Source: Simplicispira psychrophila DSM 11588
Lineage (GTDB): Bacteria > Pseudomonadota > Gammaproteobacteria > Burkholderiales > Burkholderiaceae_C
Reading direction: 5' to 3'
Length of the DNA stretch: 64,000 bases
Assembly: GCF_000688255.1 (NCBI RefSeq)
Contig: NZ_JHYS01000002.1
Location: 310,001-374,000 of the forward strand
How positions within the stretch are numbered: position 1 is the first letter of the stretch; the number at the start of each line of letters is the position of its first letter. Positions 40,266-50,850 of this stretch are shown piece by piece. Under the pieces are notes generated by a model. It searched no databases. It was not told the origin of the DNA and was given only the letters and a program-made list of their open reading frames with translations. The position numbers and the translations under genes are program-made.

Positions 40266-42833
40266 ATGAGAAAAATCAAAGTATCGAGCCGCGCCGGCGC
40301 CTTGATCGCTACATTCGCGCTGGCGGCGACAACGATAGGTTGCGGCAGCAGTGACGGGGATACTTCGGTGGGTCAGCCCAGCCAGCCCGAGCAAAAAAAG
40401 CTCACTATCAAACGTGACAGTTATGGCATTCCGCATGTCTATGCCGACACCGTGCGGGGACTCTTCCATGGCTACGGTTACGCCGTCGCAGAAGACCGCC
40501 TCTATCAGATAGAGATGGCCAAACGGTCTTCGTATGGCACCGTTGCGCAAGTGCATGGCGCTGCTTATGCCGACCTGGACGTCGCTACGCGCAAGCTCAT
40601 CGATCCGGCCTCGATCCAGGCCCAGCTGGCAGCACTGTCCCAGGACGACAAGGATATTTTTCAGGGCTATGCCGAGGGGTTCAATGCCCGCATTCAGGAA
40701 GTCATGGCCAACAAGCAGGAGCTGATGCCCAAGCAGTTCATTGACGCCGGCTTTGAGCCTGTTGCCTGGACGGCGGAAGATGTGGCAATGGTGTGGGTGG
40801 TCACGATGGCGGTCCGTTTCTCCAACAGCAACAGCGAAATTTCAAACCTCCAACTGCTCAATGATTTGAAAGCGGCCAAGGGCGATGCCGTCGGCCAGCA
40901 GATTTTTGAACAGCTGCGCTGGCTGGAAGATCCGACGTCGCCCACGACGGTACCACGCGCGGCAGGCTATACCCCGGTGCAAGTGGTACAGGCGAATGCG
41001 CCAGCCACTGTGGTAGCCGCCCAGGGGCCACGCCGCGCCGCGCCGCAAATGGTTGCGCAAAAGCCACCCTCCAAAGCGCTGTTTGCCGAGCAGCAACAGG
41101 CCCGCCTGTCGCCTGTTCCGGCTGAAATGCTCCAAGAGCAGAACACCCTTTTTGCCGCCTGGCGTGGACTGGCCACACCGGACGAACGTCCCAAGGCCAG
41201 CAACCTGTGGATTTTGGGGCCGAACAAGACCAGCGACAAAAGCACCATCTTCAGCAATGGCCCGCAATTCGGCAATTTCAATCCTAGCTACGTGTATGGC
41301 ATTGGTCTGCACGGGGCGGGGTTTGATGTCACGGGCAATACGCCCTTTGCCAATCCGGTGATCTTGTTTGGCACCAATGGGCATATTTCCTGGGGCGCCA
41401 CTGCCGGGCCGCTGGATGTCAACGACATGTACGAGGAAAAAATCAACAATGCCAACGAGTATTTGTTCAATGGCACCTATCGGCCGATGAAAAAGCGTGT
41501 CGAGGTGGTCAAGGTCAAGGGCGACAAGGACATTACGGTCGAGGTGTTCTCCACCGTCCACGGCACTGTGACCAGCATGGATGCGGCCAAGGGCACCGCC
41601 TACAGCATGCGCCGCAGCTGGGACGGCCAGGAAGTCGAGACGCTGCTGGGCTGGATTCACTCCGTGAAAGCCAAGAGCTGGACGGAGTGGCTGAAGCAGG
41701 CCGAGCGCGTCGCCATCACCATCAACTGGTACTACGCCGACAAGCTGGGCAACATTGGTTATGTGTCACCCGGCCGGTTGCCGATTCGGCCACCCAACCA
41801 GGACGTTCGTTTGCCCGCGCTGGGCGATGGCAGCATGGAATGGCAGGGGTTCAAGCCGTTTAGCGAAGTGCCCCAGGTCTACAACCCCAGCCAAGGCTAT
41901 ATCGTCAACTGGAACAACCAATCGGCGCCTGGGGTGCAAGGGGATGGAGCCAATTATTCGATCGTCGATCGGGTGAACGAATTCATTTTCCGCATCGATG
42001 CCAAACCCACGCTGACACCAGCGGAAGCCGCCGATCTGACCCGGCTGACCTCTTTTTCAGACCCCAATGCGCGCTATTTTGTGCCTTACATCCTGGAAGC
42101 CACCCGGGGCCTGCCGGCCACCGATCCGGTACAGCAGGCCGCGCAGTTGCTGGGCCAATGGGATGGTCTGAACACCAATGTGCAGGACAAGGGCGTGTAC
42201 AGCGAACCCGCCGTCACCGTCATGCGCACCTGGCTGCCCCTGGTCTTCAAGCAACTGCTGGCCGACGATCTGCCTGTGGGGGTGGTGGAGCGATACCTTG
42301 GCGCGGGTTATCCAACGAGCGCCGCCGGCTCGGCCTCTCCTGCGCCAGGCTCCAAGCTGCTGTACAACGCCCTGCTGGGCGCCAAAGCAGGCGTGCCGCA
42401 GAAATATGACTTCCTGAACGGTGCGGACAAATACGCCTTGATTCGCGATACTTTGGCACAAGCCGTGACCAGCCTCACCGCGAAATACGGCCCGGACATG
42501 TCGCAGTGGCTCACACCGGTGACGCCGCACACGTTTGCGGTGAAGAACTTCATGCAGTACCCGCAGGCCGGTGCCGACGAGGCGCTGTCTTTGCCGACCT
42601 ACATGAACCGTGGTACGCAAAACGATCGCGTCACGTTTGCTGCCGGCGGCGAAGTCTCCATGTGCACGGTGGCACCCCCCGGACAAAGCGGTTTTGTGGC
42701 GCCGAATGGAGCGAAATCCAAGCACTACGCCGACCAGTTGGAGCTGTACAAGAACTTCACGTGCCGCGAAGAGAGCTTGACTCCCCAGGCGGTCAATGCC
42801 AACCAAGAGTCTTCCAAGACACTGAGCTACTGA
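40266..42833 (+). CDS. Penicillin/acyl-homoserine-lactone acylase family lipoprotein (Ntn hydrolase)
   Basis: An 855-residue secreted Ntn hydrolase. The N-terminal leader has a lipobox-like TTIGC (Cys26). The alpha-chain part begins KRDSYGIPHVYADTVRGLFHGYGYAVAEDRLYQ. Auto-cleavage should occur before Ser312 (PKA-SNLWILGP), the nucleophile of the beta chain; FGTNGHISWGATAG and TINWYYADKLGNIGYVSPGRLP are also typical. The expected reaction is hydrolysis of an N-acyl amide: penicillin, AHL or another acyl-amino compound. Ala precedes the Ser where Gly is commonest. GGAG lies upstream of the ATG, and a TetR-type operator lies further upstream. Confidence 0.85.
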   Translation: MRKIKVSSRAGALIATFALAATTIGCGSSDGDTSVGQPSQPEQKKLTIKRDSYGIPHVYADTVRGLFHGYGYAVAEDRLYQIEMAKRSSYGTVAQVHGAAYADLDVATRKLIDPASIQAQLAALSQDDKDIFQGYAEGFNARIQEVMANKQELMPKQFIDAGFEPVAWTAEDVAMVWVVTMAVRFSNSNSEISNLQLLNDLKAAKGDAVGQQIFEQLRWLEDPTSPTTVPRAAGYTPVQVVQANAPATVVAAQGPRRAAPQMVAQKPPSKALFAEQQQARLSPVPAEMLQEQNTLFAAWRGLATPDERPKASNLWILGPNKTSDKSTIFSNGPQFGNFNPSYVYGIGLHGAGFDVTGNTPFANPVILFGTNGHISWGATAGPLDVNDMYEEKINNANEYLFNGTYRPMKKRVEVVKVKGDKDITVEVFSTVHGTVTSMDAAKGTAYSMRRSWDGQEVETLLGWIHSVKAKSWTEWLKQAERVAITINWYYADKLGNIGYVSPGRLPIRPPNQDVRLPALGDGSMEWQGFKPFSEVPQVYNPSQGYIVNWNNQSAPGVQGDGANYSIVDRVNEFIFRIDAKPTLTPAEAADLTRLTSFSDPNARYFVPYILEATRGLPATDPVQQAAQLLGQWDGLNTNVQDKGVYSEPAVTVMRTWLPLVFKQLLADDLPVGVVERYLGAGYPTSAAGSASPAPGSKLLYNALLGAKAGVPQKYDFLNGADKYALIRDTLAQAVTSLTAKYGPDMSQWLTPVTPHTFAVKNFMQYPQAGADEALSLPTYMNRGTQNDRVTFAAGGEVSMCTVAPPGQSGFVAPNGAKSKHYADQLELYKNFTCREESLTPQAVNANQESSKTLSY

Positions 42834-42862: not shown

Positions 42863-42900
42863 CGGCGCCGATTCAACCAGAACAGGTCGGATCGGCGCCG
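42863..42900. terminator. Inverted repeat between convergent acylase and TetR genes
   Basis: CGGCGCCGAT (42863-42872) pairs exactly with ATCGGCGCCG (42891-42900) across an 18-base loop. It may terminate both genes, but it lacks a long T run and overlaps the TetR 3' end. Confidence 0.4.
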
Positions 42901-43541
42901 TTGTCGTTGCTGGTGTCCACCGTTGGCGAGGCGGCGGGGTTGGGCCACTGCACGGCGGCAAATCCGCCCAGAAAAAGGTCGGCGACGATGCGCGCCATTT
43001 CCTCGTAGCTGAGCCGTCCATCGGGTTTCAGCCAAGTAAACATCCAGTTCATCATGCCAAACAGCAGCATGGTGAGCGGTTTCTCCATTTGCGCTGTCTG
43101 CAATTCGGGTCGCATCGCCACCATGGCGCTGGCGAAGGCACGCACCACCACGCGCTCCTTGTCCCAAATGGCCTCTCTGGATGGCGGACTCAGAAAGCGG
43201 ACGTCCTCTGTCAGTACCCGGTGTGCATGGTGGGCGTTTTCGTATTCATGCATGAAGCCCAAGATAAGTAAGCGCAGTAAATTTTCGGGGGTATGCGGTT
43301 GTGCGGTGATTTTCTCGACCAGCGCCACCAGGCGCGATACATGCTCATCCGCAATGGTGTGCAGAAGCTCGCTTTTATCGGCGAAGTGGTGGTACAGCGT
43401 CGCTTTGGAAAGTTTGCAGGCGTCCGCCACATCGTTCATCGTGGTCGAGGGATACCCCCGGCTGGCAAACAGGGCCGCCGAATTCGCCAGGATGCTGCGC
43501 TGCTGATCGGTGGGGAGGCGGGACGTTTTCTTTTGATTCAT
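42873..43541 (-). CDS. TetR/AcrR-family regulator
   Basis: A 222-residue regulator. The N-terminal helix-turn-helix reads ILANSAALFASRGYPSTTMND, then VADACKLSKATLYHHFADKSEL, the classic TetR pattern. The C-terminal ligand/dimer domain contains LLFGMMNWMFTWLKPDGRLSYEEMA, as in regulators of acyl-CoA or fatty-acid genes (TetR_C_33-like). It converges on the acylase gene and probably binds the palindromes in front of it. The start at 43541 begins the standard domain; longer readings lack support. Confidence 0.85.
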   Translation of the reverse strand: MNQKKTSRLPTDQQRSILANSAALFASRGYPSTTMNDVADACKLSKATLYHHFADKSELLHTIADEHVSRLVALVEKITAQPHTPENLLRLLILGFMHEYENAHHAHRVLTEDVRFLSPPSREAIWDKERVVVRAFASAMVAMRPELQTAQMEKPLTMLLFGMMNWMFTWLKPDGRLSYEEMARIVADLFLGGFAAVQWPNPAASPTVDTSNDNGADPTCSG

Positions 43542-43671
43542 GGATGGGGTGCTTGCATGTAGCTTGAGGGCGTTCTCCGCCGGGATTCGGAAGGTGCCGG
43601 CCTTTGCTTGAGCGCAACATGGTTTGCGAAACGCTCTATGGGGCGCTTCACAGGTTCGTCCGGTGTGCCCA

Positions 43672-46482
43672 TCATCTCGCCAGCAGACGCAATCCTGGCG
43701 GCAAGGCCTCGCCAAAACTGCGCTTTTGGTCTGCATCATCGAGTTGCACGGCTTCGCGCACCATCGTGACCCAGCTGGCTGGGGCGCGCACGGCGGCCAA
43801 GCGGCGGGCGACTTGTTCGCGCAGTTCGGGCGCTAAATCGCGCGTGCGGTCGCCACTCATGCGGGCGATTTGCGCAGCGGCAAACGCTGCGGGTTCCACT
43901 GCTTTCCAGTCCAGCGCCAGCAGGGCTTGCAGCCAGCCGCTGGCGATCTCCGCGGGCACCACGGTGTGCGCGCTGCCGTAGAGCGGTACGCGCGCGCCCA
44001 GGCGCCCCAAGGCCCACCAAGTTTGCGGGTTCTCGTCGGGGCGTTGCAGCCGCTCTAGCACCCAGCGGCCGGTTTCGGCGCGGTGGTGGCCGGGCAATTG
44101 CTCCAGCAGCGCCGCCAGCCGCACCATGTCGTCGTAGCTGCCTTGCACCGGGTGGCGGGCGCGTTTGCCGGCGTCGGTGTCTTCCAAATGGCCGGCAAGG
44201 GTTTCGAGAATGTGCAGTTGCTGCGCTTCATTCAAGCCGCCGGCGGCGCGGCGCCACAGCGTCCACCACTCCGACCAGTTGCGGCTTTCGCCGGTGTATT
44301 GGATGCCTTCGGAAAACAGCGGCCAGAGTTGGTCGATGCGCCAGCTGTCCAGCGGCGTGCCCATGCCGGGGCGCAGGCAGTAGCCAGCCAAATTGAGCCA
44401 GACGCGCTCATGTTCGGCGCTGCGCCGGCGCCGGCGGGCGCGCGTCCACAGGGCATCGAACAGGGTGCGCAGCAGTGCAATGCTCCACGTGTCGCGCGCG
44501 CCCAGCAGGTGCTCCAGTGTGCTGCGCAGTTGGCGGATTTCTTTGGTGGTGACGGGTTGCTGGGGCGTGGCGCTGCCGAATACGCGCTCGATCAAGGCGA
44601 TGGCTTGGTCTAGGCGTGGATGCGCGGCGTTGTCTTCTGCACTGCCGCTATCGGCTGCGCTGTCATCACTTGCATGGCTGCGCACTTGAAACGCCAACAG
44701 CCAGCGCTGCGCCGGGTCGTCGGCGTGGGTGCAGTGCATTTCCAGCGTGCCGACCTCGGTCATGGTGGCGCTCAGTTGCACCGTGACATGCCCCCGGCGC
44801 TGACCGGCTGCTGCGGGCAGCACGGTTTCCAGCGGTGGCAGGTGGACGAAGCTGGGGGCATCGTCGCCAGTGCCGGGCACTGGCAGGTCAATCACATCAC
44901 CGGCTTGCCACGCAGTGTTGGCGGCGCAGGCCACCAAGTGAAAGCGCACCGCTTGCCCCAAACACAGGGCAAAGCTGTGGCCGAGCAGCGGTACTTCGAT
45001 GGCGCTGTCGGTGCCGCGCGGCAGCACGCAAATGGCGCGCGGCGGCGCGTCTTTTTTATCGTCTTCCAGTAGTAAAAAATAGCTGCGCGCCGAACCACCA
45101 CCGACGCCGTGCCCGAGCTGCGGCACACGCGCGGCGCGCACCAAAGCGTAGGCGACTGCGCCGCGCGCCACGGCGGTGTCCGGGTCGCTGTGTTGCAACA
45201 CGCGCACTGGAGCGCCGCGCCAGTGCGTCAGGACGTGTTCCAGCCGCTGTGCCAGCGCCGGGGCGCGGAACACGCCGCCGTTCAATAGCAGGGTGTCGGG
45301 CACGGCCAAGGTGGGGCCGGTACCGGAATGGCGCTCCAGAAACGCCGCCAAGTGCCGTGTGATGGCCGCGTCGGCCGGGTAGGGTAGGCCCAGTTCGACC
45401 AGGCCGGAGCGGCGGCGTTGTGGGCGGATACTGGCCTCTTCTTGCGGCATAAAGCCATCGACCACCAGACGCTCGACCACAGCGCGGGTCAGCGTGACCG
45501 AGCGCGCGCCGCCCACCAGTTGTGCGCCGCCGCCGAGCAGCGTGATGCTGGTGTGCGCCGGTGCGTCGGCACCCAGCAGCAGTTCTTTGGCGGTACGGCA
45601 GCGTTGCACCAGTTGGGCAAAGCGCGCGGCGGGCAGGCGGGTGCTGCTGCCCAGCGTGCGCTCGATATGGTGTGCCAGCGCCAAGTCCATGTTGTCACCG
45701 CCGAGCATCAGGTGCTCGCCGACGCCGATGCGCGTCAGACGCGGCAGGGCGTCGGGCTTGGCGGTGGTGTGTTCCACGTGGATCAACGTCAGGTCGGTGG
45801 TGCCACCGCCGACGTCGCAGACCAGTAGCTGCGCTACGCCGTGCAGTTGCGCGGCCAGTTGCTGGCGTTGGCAAAACAGCCAGTCGTGGAAGGCGGCTTG
45901 CGGCTCTTCCAGCAGGCGCAGCGGCCCCAAACCAGCGTCGCGCGCCGCTTGCAGCGTCAGGGCACGCGCGCCTTCGTCAAACGAGGCCGGCACCGTCAGC
46001 ACGATGTCTTGCTGTGCCAGTGGTGCGCTGGGGAAGCGTGCATTCCATGCTGCGTGGACATGCGCCAGATAGCTGGCGCTGGCCGCTACCGGTGAGATCT
46101 TTTCTACATCGTCGGCGGCACCCCACGGCAGGATGGCGGCGCTGCGATCAACGCCAGGGTGCGATAGCCAGCTTTTGGCGCTGCTGACCAGCCGACCCGG
46201 CACTTGGCTGCCCAAGTCGCGGGCGTAGCGGCCCAGCACCGCCGTTTCTGCTGACGACCACGGCAGCACTAAATCCGCAGCGCTCAGTTCACCCGCTGCC
46301 GGGTGGTAGCGCAGCGACGGCAGCAGCGCAGGAGCAGCCACTTCGCCCGGAGCGATCAGCTGGTCGATGGGCAGCAGGTGGATGCTGTCGCCGCCCGCGT
46401 CCGCCGCTGAGAGGTCTGCATAGGCGACGACGGTGTGGCTGGTACCCAGGTCGATGCCGACGGTGTAGCGCGCTGTACTCAC
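43672..46482 (-). CDS. Hsp70-family protein with DUF3731 C-terminal region
   Basis: A 936-residue actin-like ATPase. Nucleotide-binding motifs: phosphate 1 VGIDLGTSHTVVAY, phosphate 2 VCDVGGGTTDLTLI, GGDNMDLALAHHIE, and LLNGGVFRAPALAQRLE. The canonical DnaK substrate-binding domain is replaced by a beta-rich segment and a long C-terminal helical region (RRRRSAEHERVWLNLAGYCL, SRNWSEWWTLWRRAAGG, NPQTWWALGRLGARVPLYG) typical of DUF3731. The GTG at 46482 is chosen because GAGG overlaps the upstream stop; it lies 7 bp after the first Hsp70 gene. No DnaJ or GrpE partner is encoded here. Client and function are unknown. Confidence 0.85.
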   Translation of the reverse strand: MSTARYTVGIDLGTSHTVVAYADLSAADAGGDSIHLLPIDQLIAPGEVAAPALLPSLRYHPAAGELSAADLVLPWSSAETAVLGRYARDLGSQVPGRLVSSAKSWLSHPGVDRSAAILPWGAADDVEKISPVAASASYLAHVHAAWNARFPSAPLAQQDIVLTVPASFDEGARALTLQAARDAGLGPLRLLEEPQAAFHDWLFCQRQQLAAQLHGVAQLLVCDVGGGTTDLTLIHVEHTTAKPDALPRLTRIGVGEHLMLGGDNMDLALAHHIERTLGSSTRLPAARFAQLVQRCRTAKELLLGADAPAHTSITLLGGGAQLVGGARSVTLTRAVVERLVVDGFMPQEEASIRPQRRRSGLVELGLPYPADAAITRHLAAFLERHSGTGPTLAVPDTLLLNGGVFRAPALAQRLEHVLTHWRGAPVRVLQHSDPDTAVARGAVAYALVRAARVPQLGHGVGGGSARSYFLLLEDDKKDAPPRAICVLPRGTDSAIEVPLLGHSFALCLGQAVRFHLVACAANTAWQAGDVIDLPVPGTGDDAPSFVHLPPLETVLPAAAGQRRGHVTVQLSATMTEVGTLEMHCTHADDPAQRWLLAFQVRSHASDDSAADSGSAEDNAAHPRLDQAIALIERVFGSATPQQPVTTKEIRQLRSTLEHLLGARDTWSIALLRTLFDALWTRARRRRRSAEHERVWLNLAGYCLRPGMGTPLDSWRIDQLWPLFSEGIQYTGESRNWSEWWTLWRRAAGGLNEAQQLHILETLAGHLEDTDAGKRARHPVQGSYDDMVRLAALLEQLPGHHRAETGRWVLERLQRPDENPQTWWALGRLGARVPLYGSAHTVVPAEIASGWLQALLALDWKAVEPAAFAAAQIARMSGDRTRDLAPELREQVARRLAAVRAPASWVTMVREAVQLDDADQKRSFGEALPPGLRLLAR

Positions 46483-46489
46483 CGCCGCC

Positions 46490-48412
46490 TCACGCCTGCG
46501 CGGGGCTGGTGTTGTGGCGCGTGTCCAGCTCGACCTTCCAGCGCTCACTGCCGCTCTCGCCCTGGGCGTTGATGGGCAGGGCTTCGAGTTCCAGCGTGCC
46601 GGTAGTGGTGATGCGGGCGTGCAGTTGCACGCGCACCACTTCGCCAGCGGTGCGGCCTTGGGCGGGCAGGGTGGCCTGGATTTCTTGCAACTCGTGCAGT
46701 TCGTCGGCGCTCCAGAAGTCCAGCAGCGTGCCGACCTGGTCTTGGCGGCGCATCGACGAGCCAAAGAAACGCAAGCGCACCGGTTCACCCACGACGAGGC
46801 CGAATTCTTGACCGGGCAGTCCGGCATCGGTGCCTTCTTCCATGCCAAACGGCGCCAGACACAGCGCCTGGATCGGTGGCTCCATGCCCGGAATAGCGGG
46901 CATCGACGAATCCACCGCCACGTAATACGACTGCGCCGTGCCGCCGCGAATGCGCACGCCCCGGCCCCGGCGCACGTAGCCGTAATAGGCGGCGCCGCGT
47001 GCTACCGCCAAGTCCAGATCCGCACCGCTGAGCAGGCGTGCAGGCGCGGCGCCTTCGTCATTCAGCCAGCCGTTGAGAACGTCCAGCAGCCGCTCGGCAA
47101 TTTGCCCGGACTTGAGCACGCCGCCGTTGAACAGCACGGCGGTGGGGTGCAGAAAACTGGCCTCGGCGGAGGCAGCATTGTCAAAGCCGACGTGTCCAGC
47201 CAGCTCGGCAGTGGCATCGCGTTGGCGCGTCAAAAAAGCCGCCAGATGGCGTGTGACGGCGGCATCTTGCGCATACGGCAAACCCAGTTGCGTTAGCGCG
47301 CCGCGTGCGCGGTTGATCGGCTGGTCGGACACGGCGGCCGGTGGAAAGAAGCCTTCCAGCAGCGTCTGTTCCAGTTCGGCGCGCGTGACTTCGGTGCGCA
47401 GCGCGCCGCCAATCAGCTTGGAGCCGCGACTGGGCACCACCACTGGCACGGCGTCCACGCTGGGGTCGCTCAGCAGCATTTCTTTGGCGCTGCGGCAGGC
47501 GTGGGCTAGGGCGCGGGTTTGCCACGGGTCGAGCTGTTTGCCGTCGGCGGCCAGCTTGCGCGCTGTGCCGTAGGCCAGCGCCAAGTCCATGTTGTCGCCG
47601 CCGAGCAGGATGTGTTCGCCCACGGCAATGCGTTGCAGCTCCAGGTTGCCGTCCTGCTCCAGCACGGCGATCAGCGACAGGTCGGTGGTGCCACCGCCCA
47701 CGTCCACCACCAGCAGGATGTCGCCGCTGCGCACCTCTTTGCGCCAGGCACCGCTGCTGCGCTGAATCCAGCTGTACAGCGCCGCTTGCGGCTCTTCCAG
47801 CAGCGTCAGTTGCGGCAGACCGGCGGCCTGCGCGGCTTCGGCGGTCAGCTCGCGTGCCGCCGGGTCGAAGGAGGCGGGAATGGTGACGGTGACGTCTTGC
47901 GTCGCCAGCGGCGCTTCGGGGTGCTGCGCATCCCAGGCGGCGCGCAGGTGCGACAGGTAGCGGATCGACGCTTCCAGTGGCGAGACACGCGCCACTTCGG
48001 GCGGTGCTTCGGCCGGCAGCAGGGCGCTGCGTCTATCGATGCCGGGGTGGCACAGCCAGCTTTTGGCGCTGGAGACCAGGCGGATCGGCGTGGCCGCGCC
48101 GCGCGTGCGGGCGAATTCGCCGACAGCAAAGTCTTGGCTTGCCGACCACGGCAGGGCCAGGTCGCCGGGGGCCAGTTCGCTCTCGTGCGGCAGGTACAAA
48201 AACGACGGCAGCAGCGTGGGGTTTTCCAGCGTGCCGGGGCCGGTCAGCTGGGGCACGGACAGCACGCCTTGCACGGCGTTTTCGCCATCGCTGGCTTCGG
48301 TGTCAAGCCAGGACAGCGCGCAATGCGTGGTGCCCAGGTCGATGCCGATGGTGTAGCGCGCGCTGGGGGGGGGGTCAGTGTGGATGTCGTTGGCGTTGCT
48401 GTTGTCGTTCAC
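46490..48412 (-). CDS. Hsp70-family protein (shorter paralogue)
   Basis: A 640-residue actin-like ATPase: IGIDLGTTHCALSW, VVDVGGGTTDLSLI, VGEHILLGGDNMDLALA and LFNGGVLKSGQIAERLL. It is clearly paralogous to the downstream protein (shared RLVSSAKSWL-HPG-DR and LPYAQDAAVTRHLAAFL segments), but lacks the DUF3731 extension. Its start overlaps the DUF2760 stop by 4 bases, so translation is coupled. A run of ten C on the coding strand (48365-48374) encodes Pro residues near position 14 and could cause slippage. The function is unknown. Confidence 0.85.
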   Translation of the reverse strand: MNDNSNANDIHTDPPPSARYTIGIDLGTTHCALSWLDTEASDGENAVQGVLSVPQLTGPGTLENPTLLPSFLYLPHESELAPGDLALPWSASQDFAVGEFARTRGAATPIRLVSSAKSWLCHPGIDRRSALLPAEAPPEVARVSPLEASIRYLSHLRAAWDAQHPEAPLATQDVTVTIPASFDPAARELTAEAAQAAGLPQLTLLEEPQAALYSWIQRSSGAWRKEVRSGDILLVVDVGGGTTDLSLIAVLEQDGNLELQRIAVGEHILLGGDNMDLALAYGTARKLAADGKQLDPWQTRALAHACRSAKEMLLSDPSVDAVPVVVPSRGSKLIGGALRTEVTRAELEQTLLEGFFPPAAVSDQPINRARGALTQLGLPYAQDAAVTRHLAAFLTRQRDATAELAGHVGFDNAASAEASFLHPTAVLFNGGVLKSGQIAERLLDVLNGWLNDEGAAPARLLSGADLDLAVARGAAYYGYVRRGRGVRIRGGTAQSYYVAVDSSMPAIPGMEPPIQALCLAPFGMEEGTDAGLPGQEFGLVVGEPVRLRFFGSSMRRQDQVGTLLDFWSADELHELQEIQATLPAQGRTAGEVVRVQLHARITTTGTLELEALPINAQGESGSERWKVELDTRHNTSPAQA

Positions 48413-49002
48413 AGTTCCACCTCCGCCTGGGCCAGCACGCTGGCGTCGTGCTGCGGTGCCAGTTGCGGCAGGCGGGTGTCGGTGGCGCGCCAGCCGCGGT
48501 GCGCCAGCGTGCCGGTGAACGGTGCCTGGCCGACGACGTTGCCGGTGATGCGCGTGGCGGCGGCGTCAAAGCCCACCGGCAGGGTCAGGCGCTCGCCTTC
48601 GCTTTCGCTGCGCACGGGCTCCAGGGTGAAGTGCTCGCGCAGCACTTTGCGGCAGCCTTCGTGGACCACGCGGGTGGCGGAGCCAATCTCGCTGTCGCTG
48701 TAGGGGGCGATGTCTTCTTGCATAAAGTCGATAAAGCGCGCCTCGCGTTGCAGCAGACCGAGCAATTGCAGGGCAGCGGTGTCGGGCGCCACTTGCAGCA
48801 CGGGTGGCGGTGGCGCGACGGGTGCCGGTGCCGGCTTGGGGGCTGGTGCGGGCGCCGGGGTTGGCTCAGGCGCTTGAGGCCAGCCGCCTTCGGCGCGCAG
48901 ACGGGACACGTCCGCAGCAAAGGTGGGATTGCCGACGATGGCAAAAAAGCTGCTCACTGCCAAGGCAATGCGGCTCATCAATGAAGGAGGGGTGGGGGTC
49001 AT
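48409..49002 (-). CDS. DUF2760 protein, first gene of the Hsp70 pair operon
   Basis: A 197-residue protein with an N-terminal hydrophobic stretch (SRIALAVSSFFAIVGNPTFA) that may be a membrane anchor or signal, a Pro/Ala-rich linker (about 45-65), and the DUF2760 domain: ALQLLGLLQREARFIDFMQED, APYSDSEIGSATRVVHEGCRK and HFTLEPVRSESEGERLTLP. The function is unknown. It is translationally coupled to the two Hsp70-family genes, a triad I recall from other proteobacteria, so it is probably a dedicated partner. Confidence 0.82.
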   Translation of the reverse strand: MTPTPPSLMSRIALAVSSFFAIVGNPTFAADVSRLRAEGGWPQAPEPTPAPAPAPKPAPAPVAPPPPVLQVAPDTAALQLLGLLQREARFIDFMQEDIAPYSDSEIGSATRVVHEGCRKVLREHFTLEPVRSESEGERLTLPVGFDAAATRITGNVVGQAPFTGTLAHRGWRATDTRLPQLAPQHDASVLAQAEVEL

Positions 49003-49204: not shown

Positions 49205-50683
49205 CTATGGCCGTGCAGGGAGGCGGGCCTGCTGCCACGCCAAGTAGTCCGAGCGGCGCAGGCGGTAGCGGGCAATACTGCCCTCGTGCAACTGCTGCAG
49301 CGCCTCTGTGAGCATCTCGGCAAAGGCCATCCGGTGGGCGGGTGGGGCGTACTCCTGCGCCAGCTGGGCCACGAGGGACGGGCTGGGCTGCTGTCCGCCC
49401 TGGACGATGGTTTGCACGGCTTGCATCAAGGCGTCGCGGTACTGGATCTTCAGCGGGTCGGGCGCCACCATGGTTTGCGTCATCGCCAAGTAGTGCTGGC
49501 AAGAGCGCTCATAGGCCCAGACGAACAGGTCGCGCAGCAAGGCCACGTCATTGAGCTCGTACACCCCCAGCGTGGCTTCGGCGTAGGCGCGCTGCGGCAC
49601 ATCGATGAAGGACAGGGGACACAGGTTGTGCTTGAGCAGCGGGATGTTGGCGCCCAGGCGCGACACCCGCTGGTTGGCGTCGTCAAACGGTTGCAGGTAG
49701 GGCAGTTGCACCAGCAAGAAAAACGCCTGCTCAAACGGCTCGGGGATCGCGGTGGCTTTGTGCAGCAGCAGGGCAAAGCAGTCTTCCAGTTGCTCCGGCA
49801 CGGCCAGCGGCTCAAACACCGTGCCAGCCAGCTCGACCGGGCGCTGGCGCAGCCGGCCACTGGCGCGCGGGTCGGGCAGCAGGTCTTGCGACAGCACGGC
49901 GTGCAGATTTTTGAAGGTGAACGCATCCAGCGCCAGCTCGTCGGCATCAGGGATCAGCATCTCGATAGCGGCCTGGTGGTTCAGCAGCATCTGCGTCTCG
50001 ATGGCGTCCTGGCCTTGGGCGATGCGTCCCAGTTCGATCAGGTTCTGGGCGTCTGGGCGGCGGTAGCTGTTGCCCTCCAGCCGGGACGAGGCCCACGACC
50101 AATCCACCCGCAGCCGGCCCAGGATGTCGCGGGCGTAGGTGCCGGCGGGCTGTCCGCTTTGTGGCGTGCGCCCGATCTGGTGCAGCTGGCGCCGCGTCGG
50201 CTCGGGTAGATAAAACGTTTCGCCGGGCTGGTAGGCGTGCAGAAATTCCAGCTGGTAGCCAATCGGGCGGCGGTACATCGGCGCGCGCCGCACTTGCGTG
50301 GCGATGGCGGCGCCTTCGGGCGAGAGCGGCACCTCCAGATCGACCTCAGCTTCTGCCGGTTCGGGTGCCGCCTTCTCGGGCGCGACCCGCTCGGTCTGCG
50401 CCACTTCCAGCGCTGTGGACGCCGTTCCAGCTGCGCTGAGTGCATTGAGCGCCACAGCGCCCACCGCCAGCTTGTAGACCAGCACGATGCTTTCGCCTTC
50501 GGTGACCAGCCGCTGCTCTTCAATCAGCTTGAGCAGGCGGCGCTGCAAGGTGCGGCGCTGGGGCGGTGTGCCCAGGCGGTGCTCCATTTCTGCTTCTAGC
50601 GCAGAGATGCCCACGCCCGCAGGGTGGCTGGCGACGATGGATGCGATCAGCTCCAGCTCTTCATTCAGTGTGATGCGCGGCAT
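49205..50683 (-). CDS. Fic-family protein with degenerate catalytic motif
   Basis: A 492-residue protein. The N-terminus (about 1-75) looks like a winged helix (LEAEMEHRLGTPPQRRTLQRRLLKLIEEQ). The Fic inhibitory motif (S/T)xxxEG is present as SSRLEGN. The Fic core reads LQPFDDANQRVSRL: Gln331 replaces the catalytic His of HxFx(D/E)GNGRxxR, and both motif glycines are changed. AMPylation by the normal mechanism is therefore doubtful. The start at 50683 avoids reading through the GACA array upstream. It faces the hydroxypyruvate isomerase gene across that array. Confidence 0.8.
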   Translation of the reverse strand: MPRITLNEELELIASIVASHPAGVGISALEAEMEHRLGTPPQRRTLQRRLLKLIEEQRLVTEGESIVLVYKLAVGAVALNALSAAGTASTALEVAQTERVAPEKAAPEPAEAEVDLEVPLSPEGAAIATQVRRAPMYRRPIGYQLEFLHAYQPGETFYLPEPTRRQLHQIGRTPQSGQPAGTYARDILGRLRVDWSWASSRLEGNSYRRPDAQNLIELGRIAQGQDAIETQMLLNHQAAIEMLIPDADELALDAFTFKNLHAVLSQDLLPDPRASGRLRQRPVELAGTVFEPLAVPEQLEDCFALLLHKATAIPEPFEQAFFLLVQLPYLQPFDDANQRVSRLGANIPLLKHNLCPLSFIDVPQRAYAEATLGVYELNDVALLRDLFVWAYERSCQHYLAMTQTMVAPDPLKIQYRDALMQAVQTIVQGGQQPSPSLVAQLAQEYAPPAHRMAFAEMLTEALQQLHEGSIARYRLRRSDYLAWQQARLPARP

Positions 50684-50765
50684 CGGGGGTGTCCTTGTGC
50701 GTGCTTTTCCGGGTGCTTGTCGATGGGCCTTGTCGCGGCCCGGTGTCATGGAATATAGCGCAGCA

Positions 50766-50850
50766 CGACACAAGCACGACAGGCGCGACAAAGAATGACA
50801 AAAGCGCGACACAAGCGCGACAAAAATATGTCGCGCTTGTGTCGCGCTTT
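50766..50850. repeat. Phased GACA direct repeats with a 22-bp inverted repeat
   Basis: Six (C/T)GACA boxes start at 50766, 50777, 50786, 50796, 50807 and 50818, spaced 9-11 bases, about one DNA turn. The last two form the left arm (50801-50822) of a perfect 22-bp inverted repeat with right arm 50829-50850 around AAAATA. It lies between the divergent Fic and isomerase genes. Confidence 0.9.

Follow-up and report, generated by a model that had tools for sequence, protein, structure and literature searches.

What kind of system is formed by two Hsp70-type ATPases which are encoded side by side with a DUF2760 protein, in an operon that has neither a J-protein nor an exchange factor? The question is raised by three genes in a 64,000-nucleotide stretch of the 3.6 Mb genome of Simplicispira psychrophila DSM 11588 (RefSeq assembly GCF_000688255.1, contig NZ_JHYS01000002.1, positions 310,001–374,000 of the forward strand), which we refer to as the window and whose positions are used throughout. 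The triad occupies 43672–49002 on the minus strand and is read in the order DUF2760, HspA and HspB, the last two being the names used here for the paralogous ATPases. We find that the triad is a real, co-inherited genetic unit, and hold with moderate confidence that it specifies a specialised and largely J-domain-independent Hsp70 machine in which the ATPase pair is held at the membrane by DUF2760. A preliminary description of the locus regarded this as a strong candidate for an undescribed system, and we likewise found no paper under DUF2760, DUF3731, ‘DNA-K related protein’, or the accessions of Pfam and InterPro; among the papers listed by wider literature searches, none describes the triad.

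A conserved and co-inherited three-gene unit

The first gene of the unit encodes a 197-amino acid DUF2760 protein (48409–49002; Pfam PF10816, 179.5 bits, E 2.6e-53) and is followed by those for the 640-amino acid HspA (46490–48412; Pfam HSP70, E 3.5e-16) and the 936-amino acid HspB (43672–46482; Pfam HSP70, E 1.3e-13), in which the ATPase is fused to a DUF3731 domain (residues 688–933, 43684–44421; PF12531, 340.8 bits, E 7.8e-102), all of these features being on the minus strand. The length of HspB is counted from a GTG start which we inferred from alignment, and the raw open reading frame (ORF) extends upstream to a TTG. HspA and HspB share 40% identity over 635 alignment columns. The tight coupling reported in the preliminary description was correct in coordinates and frames, with four bases (GTGA) common to the DUF2760 stop and the HspA start, and a gap of seven bases separating the end of HspA from the GTG at which HspB probably starts. 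The fixed-stoichiometry complex that had been read into these junctions is not implied by overlaps, and HspB is at times detached or absent.

Co-occurrence across genomes had been named beforehand as a test that could refute the proposed unit, and the three genes do occur together. Among 398 Pseudomonadota genomes, DUF2760 is present in 28, and a profile of the HspA C-terminal domain (built from 31 of the 106 HspA sequences) matches the same 28. DUF3731 is found in 27 of these, and in the odd genome (G026) HspA stops about 80 bases before the end of its contig. Neither the DUF2760 nor the DUF3731 Pfam family was found in 14 well-known control genomes, through which alone the sampling extended beyond the Pseudomonadota. 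The distribution of the triad is patchy, with 5/12 listed genomes of the window’s own family carrying it and genera g5 and g17 each having one genome with and one without all three genes, and this patchiness within families and genera indicates that gain and loss of the triad genes go together. The same 11 of 72,556 plasmid records were matched by HspA (E 1e-60) and DUF2760 (E 1e-5).

The gene order was examined in 108 loci, consisting of the window, 80 named loci and 27 regions of other genomes which were found via DUF2760 or DUF3731. The named loci are the 80 top-ranking ones among 346 that an HspB query retrieved (the closest named relative of HspB, at 84% in the best segment, is from an uncultured Simplicispira), and because of this only the presence of DUF2760 and HspA is informative there. 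All three genes were present in 104/108 loci, and in each of these 104 they lay on a single strand in the order DUF2760–HspA–HspB, which bears out the unit that the preliminary description had put forward, namely a pair of paralogous ATPases together with DUF2760. The four-base overlap between DUF2760 and HspA was seen in 85/106 cases. The HspA–HspB junction is variable, with a four-base overlap in 32/106 and 2.9 kb between the genes in one locus (L128), and three of the four incomplete loci stop at a contig edge. As HspB is sometimes detached or absent, DUF2760 and HspA look like the core of the unit.

Two Hsp70-type ATPases with altered partner sites

HspA and HspB pass the Pfam PF00012 cut-off of 20.6 bits with 59 and 50.5 bits respectively, which is above their scores against actin-like profiles (22.7 and 15.7 bits), and do not reach the NCBIfam equivalogs for HscA (best 76.7 vs 708.55 bits) or DnaK (best 49.2 vs 648 bits). 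The intact phosphate loops noted earlier proved to be general, as the equivalents of DnaK D8, T11, K70, P143, E171, D194, T199 and D201 (read from an alignment with the DnaK and HscA of the same genome) are kept in 106/106 HspA and 106/106 HspB, and these retained catalytic residues suggest that both proteins are ATP-driven. A tree of 57 proteins placed 26/26 HspA in a single clade (100/99) separated by a long branch from six DnaK/HscA proteins. The 25 HspB were compatible with one clade, yet this was shown by only 3% of bootstrap trees, and it should be noted that the tree program flagged long branches meeting.

No VLLLDV-like interdomain linker was found in the 106 HspA or the 106 HspB when the pattern was sought in residues 381–540. 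The roles of DnaK residues in J-domain docking and in bridging the nucleotide cleft are assigned by a 2021 review (PMC8215388, cited here and below from the available portions of its text), and many of their equivalents are replaced in the triad proteins. The Q378 equivalent is Y or F in 106/106 HspA and 101/106 HspB, that of R167 is T in 97/106 HspA, and that of E206 is A in 96/106 HspA. Both cleft-bridging pairs, K55–E267 and R56–E264, are gone in HspA, and position 267 is R in 99/106 HspA and in 106/106 HspB. Because most of the J-docking residues and the linker are changed, the HspA/HspB cycle probably runs without a canonical J-domain.

The preliminary description had found no J-protein or exchange factor, which holds within the operon but not for the genome, where a canonical DnaK is accompanied by DnaJ and GrpE and a J-protein goes with HscA. 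The genome contains four J-domain loci and a single GrpE. HspA and HspB could on this basis be an ordinary specialised Hsp70 pair which borrows DnaJ-type proteins and GrpE from elsewhere in the genome, with DUF2760 acting as a client adaptor or being itself a client. Such borrowing is favoured by the presence of these potential partners and by the R167 equivalent, which is kept in 88/106 HspB so that J-docking is not wholly lost there, but we consider it unlikely given the altered linker and J-docking positions of HspA, the loss of both cleft-bridging pairs in HspA, and the arginine at position 267 in every HspB (the meaning of these residues following PMC8215388).

The view that the ATPases have no DnaK-type substrate domain, also taken in the preliminary description, needs to be revised. 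For HspB, AlphaFold2 gave a model (61 rows; mean predicted local distance difference test score, pLDDT, 77; predicted template modelling score, pTM, 0.60) that consists of the ATPase domain, strands at 467–598 and then helices to the end, and the strands fall in a predicted β-sandwich (residues 461–602, 44677–45102) which resembles the β part of the Hsp70 substrate-binding domain (SBDβ) and superposes on DnaK. The alignments used for modelling came from named genomes plus the window and were thinned at 93% identity, leaving 61/81 rows for HspB and 49/78 for DUF2760. VIA-align superposed the HspB model on full-length Hsp70 chains over 455–457 residues (root-mean-square deviation, rmsd, 5.1–6.1), reaching DnaK residue 483–505, and on ATPase-domain-only chains over about 331–356 residues. 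A substrate-type β-sandwich is, on this modelling, probably present after the HspB ATPase domain. The corresponding regions of HspA and HspB are homologous (hhalign 99.73%), and the HspA C-terminal domain (46493–46960) would thus have the same β-sandwich; the fold of HspA rests on this homology because the structure models cover HspB and DUF2760. What is missing instead, in addition to the VLLLDV linker, is the SBDα lid, as HspA stops after the β domain and HspB has the DUF3731 domain, helical in the model, at the place of the Hsp70 lid.

DUF2760 as a candidate membrane partner

In the AlphaFold2 model of DUF2760 (49 rows, pLDDT 71, pTM 0.39) the N-terminal residues 8–38 (48889–48981) form helices at 8–23 and 26–38 that are moderately hydrophobic in the window, and are followed by a Pro/Ala-rich linker without a model helix (residues 39–73, 48784–48888) and by the conserved domain (residues 75–196, 48415–48780, from the Pfam range and the model), in which two helices precede β strands. 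The N-terminus varies by lineage. Taking the best 19-residue window as the measure of hydropathy, N-terminal membrane helices are predicted in 18/18 DUF2760 proteins from three lineages with values of at least 1.91. These are family f43, with two strong helices in 7/7 (2.47–3.02), family f21, with one helix in 9/9 (1.91–2.15) followed by VEK-repeat linkers, and two Bradyrhizobium plasmid proteins (first helix 2.93 and 2.89, second 2.37). For comparison, no value above 1.52 occurs in the first 100 residues of 31 GrpE, 106 HspA and 106 HspB. The linker of DUF2760 proteins in the window’s wider lineage is mostly Pro/Ala. Basic residues follow the N-terminal helices and point to a cytoplasmic position of the conserved domain. 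Unlike a J-domain protein, DUF2760 has no DnaJ domain match and no HPD in its sequence.

Could DUF2760 supply nucleotide exchange instead? It might be a membrane-anchored and far-diverged GrpE-type exchange factor, a single tethered protein that stands in for the two customary co-chaperones of a J-domain-independent HspA–HspB pair. The triad would then join DnaK, HscA and HscC as the fourth Hsp70 system of bacteria, and we regard this as a doubtful proposal. The top Foldseek match of the DUF2760 model among 350,542 PDB chains was Thermus GrpE (3a6m_A; E 1.1, probability 0.21, the next best being 0.08), and VIA-align gave Z 3.3 for GrpE (rank 8 of 27; 89 residues, rmsd 5.0) with an identity of 20% that was the highest listed. 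Judging by the end points of this alignment (174 to 155), the R-G-W conserved in DUF2760 (169–171) would coincide with the K-G-Y of GrpE, whose numbering we inferred from a profile alignment assumed to be gapless there. GrpE accounts for 7 distinct sequences of 177,635 in PDB at E 0.001. A Foldseek search of a viral library with the same model returned comparably weak matches (best E 0.33, best probability 0.14), so that E 1.1 is not significant alone and the weight of the GrpE match comes solely from GrpE being the expected class of partner. The loss of the cleft bridges also weighs against an exchange-factor role, since Hsp70s without them are described as releasing ADP quickly and perhaps not needing such a factor (PMC8215388).

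Homology to GrpE was not apparent at the sequence level. The comparison of 105 DUF2760 with 31 GrpE sequences by hhalign gave 11.6, against 11.7 for a reversed decoy and 20.3 for the best of 99 shuffles, and the C-terminal half of DUF2760 scored 10.2, compared with a maximum of 20.8 in 150 shuffles. The best DUF2760 protein ranked only 232 in a GrpE hmmsearch, a DUF2760 profile search of the PDB sequences returned two chance rows and no GrpE, and three DUF2760 proteins searched at E 10 showed no PF01025 row, although the filters drop most weak rows. The long helical stalk typical of GrpE (about 70 residues) is not found in DUF2760, which has a Pro/Ala or VEK-repeat linker and no model helix at 39–73. 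We note separately that a second, weak GrpE (53–72 bits) was present in 9/60 genomes, in families f37, f43, f49 and f53 (e.g. G018:C39:24406-26594), and adjoined a second DnaK-like gene in 6/6 of the genomes also searched for Hsp70 (G002, G018, G022, G026, G030 and G037), apparently forming a separate small Hsp70–GrpE operon.

Proposed working and relation to known systems

In the machine that we propose, HspA and HspB would work as one ATP-driven unit, each with a lidless substrate-type β-sandwich. Hsp110 serves as an Hsp70 partner, and HspB, with the helical DUF3731 at the lid place, may be the partner of HspA in the same manner. DUF2760 would be a dedicated co-chaperone whose conserved C-terminal domain may dock on HspA, as their adjacency and co-inheritance suggest, and its N-terminal membrane segment and long linker would tether the pair to the inner membrane on the cytoplasmic side. 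There the pair would bind and release clients in cycles of ATP hydrolysis, probably without a canonical J-domain. Complex formation, client binding, the membrane location in this genome and an effect of DUF2760 on the ATPase cycle are what this model predicts.

The triad might instead have no chaperone function. The two proteins would then be an actin-like ATPase pair that serves as a switch in membrane signalling or scaffolding, and DUF2760 would be the membrane receptor. Weak scores against MreB and further actin-like families are also obtained with the ATPase part, membrane segments are predicted in the DUF2760 proteins of three lineages, and a Myxococcus Hsp70-like protein acts as a negative regulator of exopolysaccharide (PMC4319316, in the available part of that paper), all of which would suit a switch. 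We nonetheless think a switch quite unlikely, as the predicted HspB β-sandwich superposes on the DnaK substrate domain and is common to HspA, and Hsp70 profiles outscore the actin-like ones for both proteins. An anti-phage or mobile-element defence module is very improbable and we reject it as the principal explanation, for while the distribution is patchy, one relative adjoins annotated anti-phage genes on a plasmid and a candidate defence profile is weakly matched (20.9 bits for HspA, 13.8 bits for HspB), this match is confined to the ATPase part, DUF2760 has no match in 50,697 phage records and no flanking family is widely repeated, though no separate count of defence genes was made.

Several observations weigh against the membrane-held Hsp70 machine. 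At the sequence level, hhalign comparisons of the HspA and HspB β-sandwich regions with those of 32 DnaK/HscA gave 15.4 and 9.9, within the range of shuffles, and a PDB profile search with the SBDβ-like region found nothing better than E 0.77; the retained R167 equivalent in most HspB, given above, belongs here as well. The window’s wider lineage is only moderately hydrophobic at the DUF2760 N-terminus, with medians of 1.44, 1.59 and 1.49 in three groups of 88 proteins in all, 30/88 reaching 1.6 and the window’s own protein having 1.62. Whole HspA reaches 1.6 in 90/108, so that values near 1.6 are no proof of a membrane helix, and the f25 DUF2760 proteins (2/2) and that of Thiodictyon (1.15) have no equally hydrophobic stretch. 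An amphipathic membrane helix was considered for the Burkholderiales-type DUF2760 and rejected, as the hydrophobic moment was not above that of shuffles (median p 0.745; 79/87 sequences fitted the search pattern and 8 were dropped). As the helix of the window’s lineage is not specially amphipathic, attachment of its DUF2760 to the membrane is a presumption on our part. The unit is also not always intact: in the fourth incomplete locus, from the draft genome G053 with its roughly 240 contigs, other genes follow HspA and a frame-broken HspB is on a separate contig, which may be an assembly fault, and a Candidatus Thiodictyon plasmid record holds DUF2760–HspA without HspB. A client is not indicated by any widely recurring neighbour; when flanking ORFs of at least 100 amino acids were clustered, the largest group occurred in 27/108 loci, on mixed sides and strands. 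Finally, a heat-shock (sigma-32) promoter is not enriched, with sites of at most two mismatches in 6/103 upstream regions, where shuffles gave an expectation of 4.6. Sites resembling those of sigma-70, with at most three mismatches, were commoner than in shuffles (44 against 17.6).

In the window, a 535-amino acid Fic-domain protein is encoded on the same strand 202 bases upstream of the triad (49205–50812), and a penicillin-amidase family gene (40266–42833) and a TetR regulator (42873–43739) lie convergent and directly downstream of HspB, with the longest ORF of the regulator overlapping the HspB end. On a Bradyrhizobium plasmid typed as conjugative (L227:6289-14800), groES and then groEL follow the triad on the same strand, which speaks for the proposed machine, and on the Candidatus Thiodictyon plasmid (L228:1-13509), DUF2760–HspA adjoins annotated anti-phage genes, a VapC toxin and a TIR-domain protein. 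Both f25 genomes (L140:3404-5314 and L139:4128-6110) have genes sharing their opening sequence that end 3–21 bases ahead of DUF2760 in an operon-like arrangement, and the copy in L140, with its two ABC-ATPase domains, is presumably an ABC-F protein.

One published observation very probably concerns HspA and indicates that it is expressed. In a Burkholderia pseudomallei dehydrogenase mutant, a 65,225-Da ‘Hsp70 family protein’ was down and was treated by the authors as a general Hsp70 (PMC7085900, in the available parts of the paper). The forward primer printed there translates to GEHILL, a motif which occurs in 83/106 HspA, 0/106 HspB and 0/32 DnaK/HscA, and three related HspA have masses of 65.7–66.2 kDa and computed pI values of 5.1–5.2 (printed value 5.7). 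The triad gives this proteomics match a new reading.

The same 2021 review counts three types of bacterial Hsp70 machine, namely DnaK, HscA and HscC (PMC8215388), and the triad looks like a further type. Its two Hsp70 paralogues are linked and lidless, their J-docking positions are altered, and the dedicated partner is a predicted membrane protein in several lineages. Confirmation of this would reveal how an Hsp70 cycle runs without a canonical J-domain, and would provide a membrane-bound Hsp70 system that could be rebuilt from three genes.

Of the known systems, DnaK with DnaJ and GrpE is like the triad in all of the catalytic residues tested and in the predicted β-sandwich after the ATPase domain. 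The triad differs from it in lacking the VLLLDV linker and the lid, in having mostly changed J-docking positions and two paralogues per operon, and in having DUF2760 in place of a J-protein and GrpE. As modelled, DUF2760 has the helix–helix–β order of GrpE, but it shows no profile similarity, has no long stalk, and has predicted membrane helices in several lineages. The eukaryotic Hsp70–Hsp110 pair is likewise made up of two paralogues with the Hsp70 fold, in one of which the helical C-terminal part is enlarged, and an Hsp110 ATPase domain (6gfa) is among the VIA-align rows of the HspB model (Z 27.4), although no common subfamily is shown and no PDB sequence matches DUF3731 at an E below 0.3. 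E. coli HscC with DjlB/DjlC differs in that its partners are J-proteins, whereas DUF2760 has no J-domain match, and in that HscC is a single protein with a lid. It is nevertheless also a specialised Hsp70 tied to small membrane-anchored partners (PMC8215388), and a lobe I that is shortened after K70 is common to HscC and the triad Hsp70s (from the review and our alignment).

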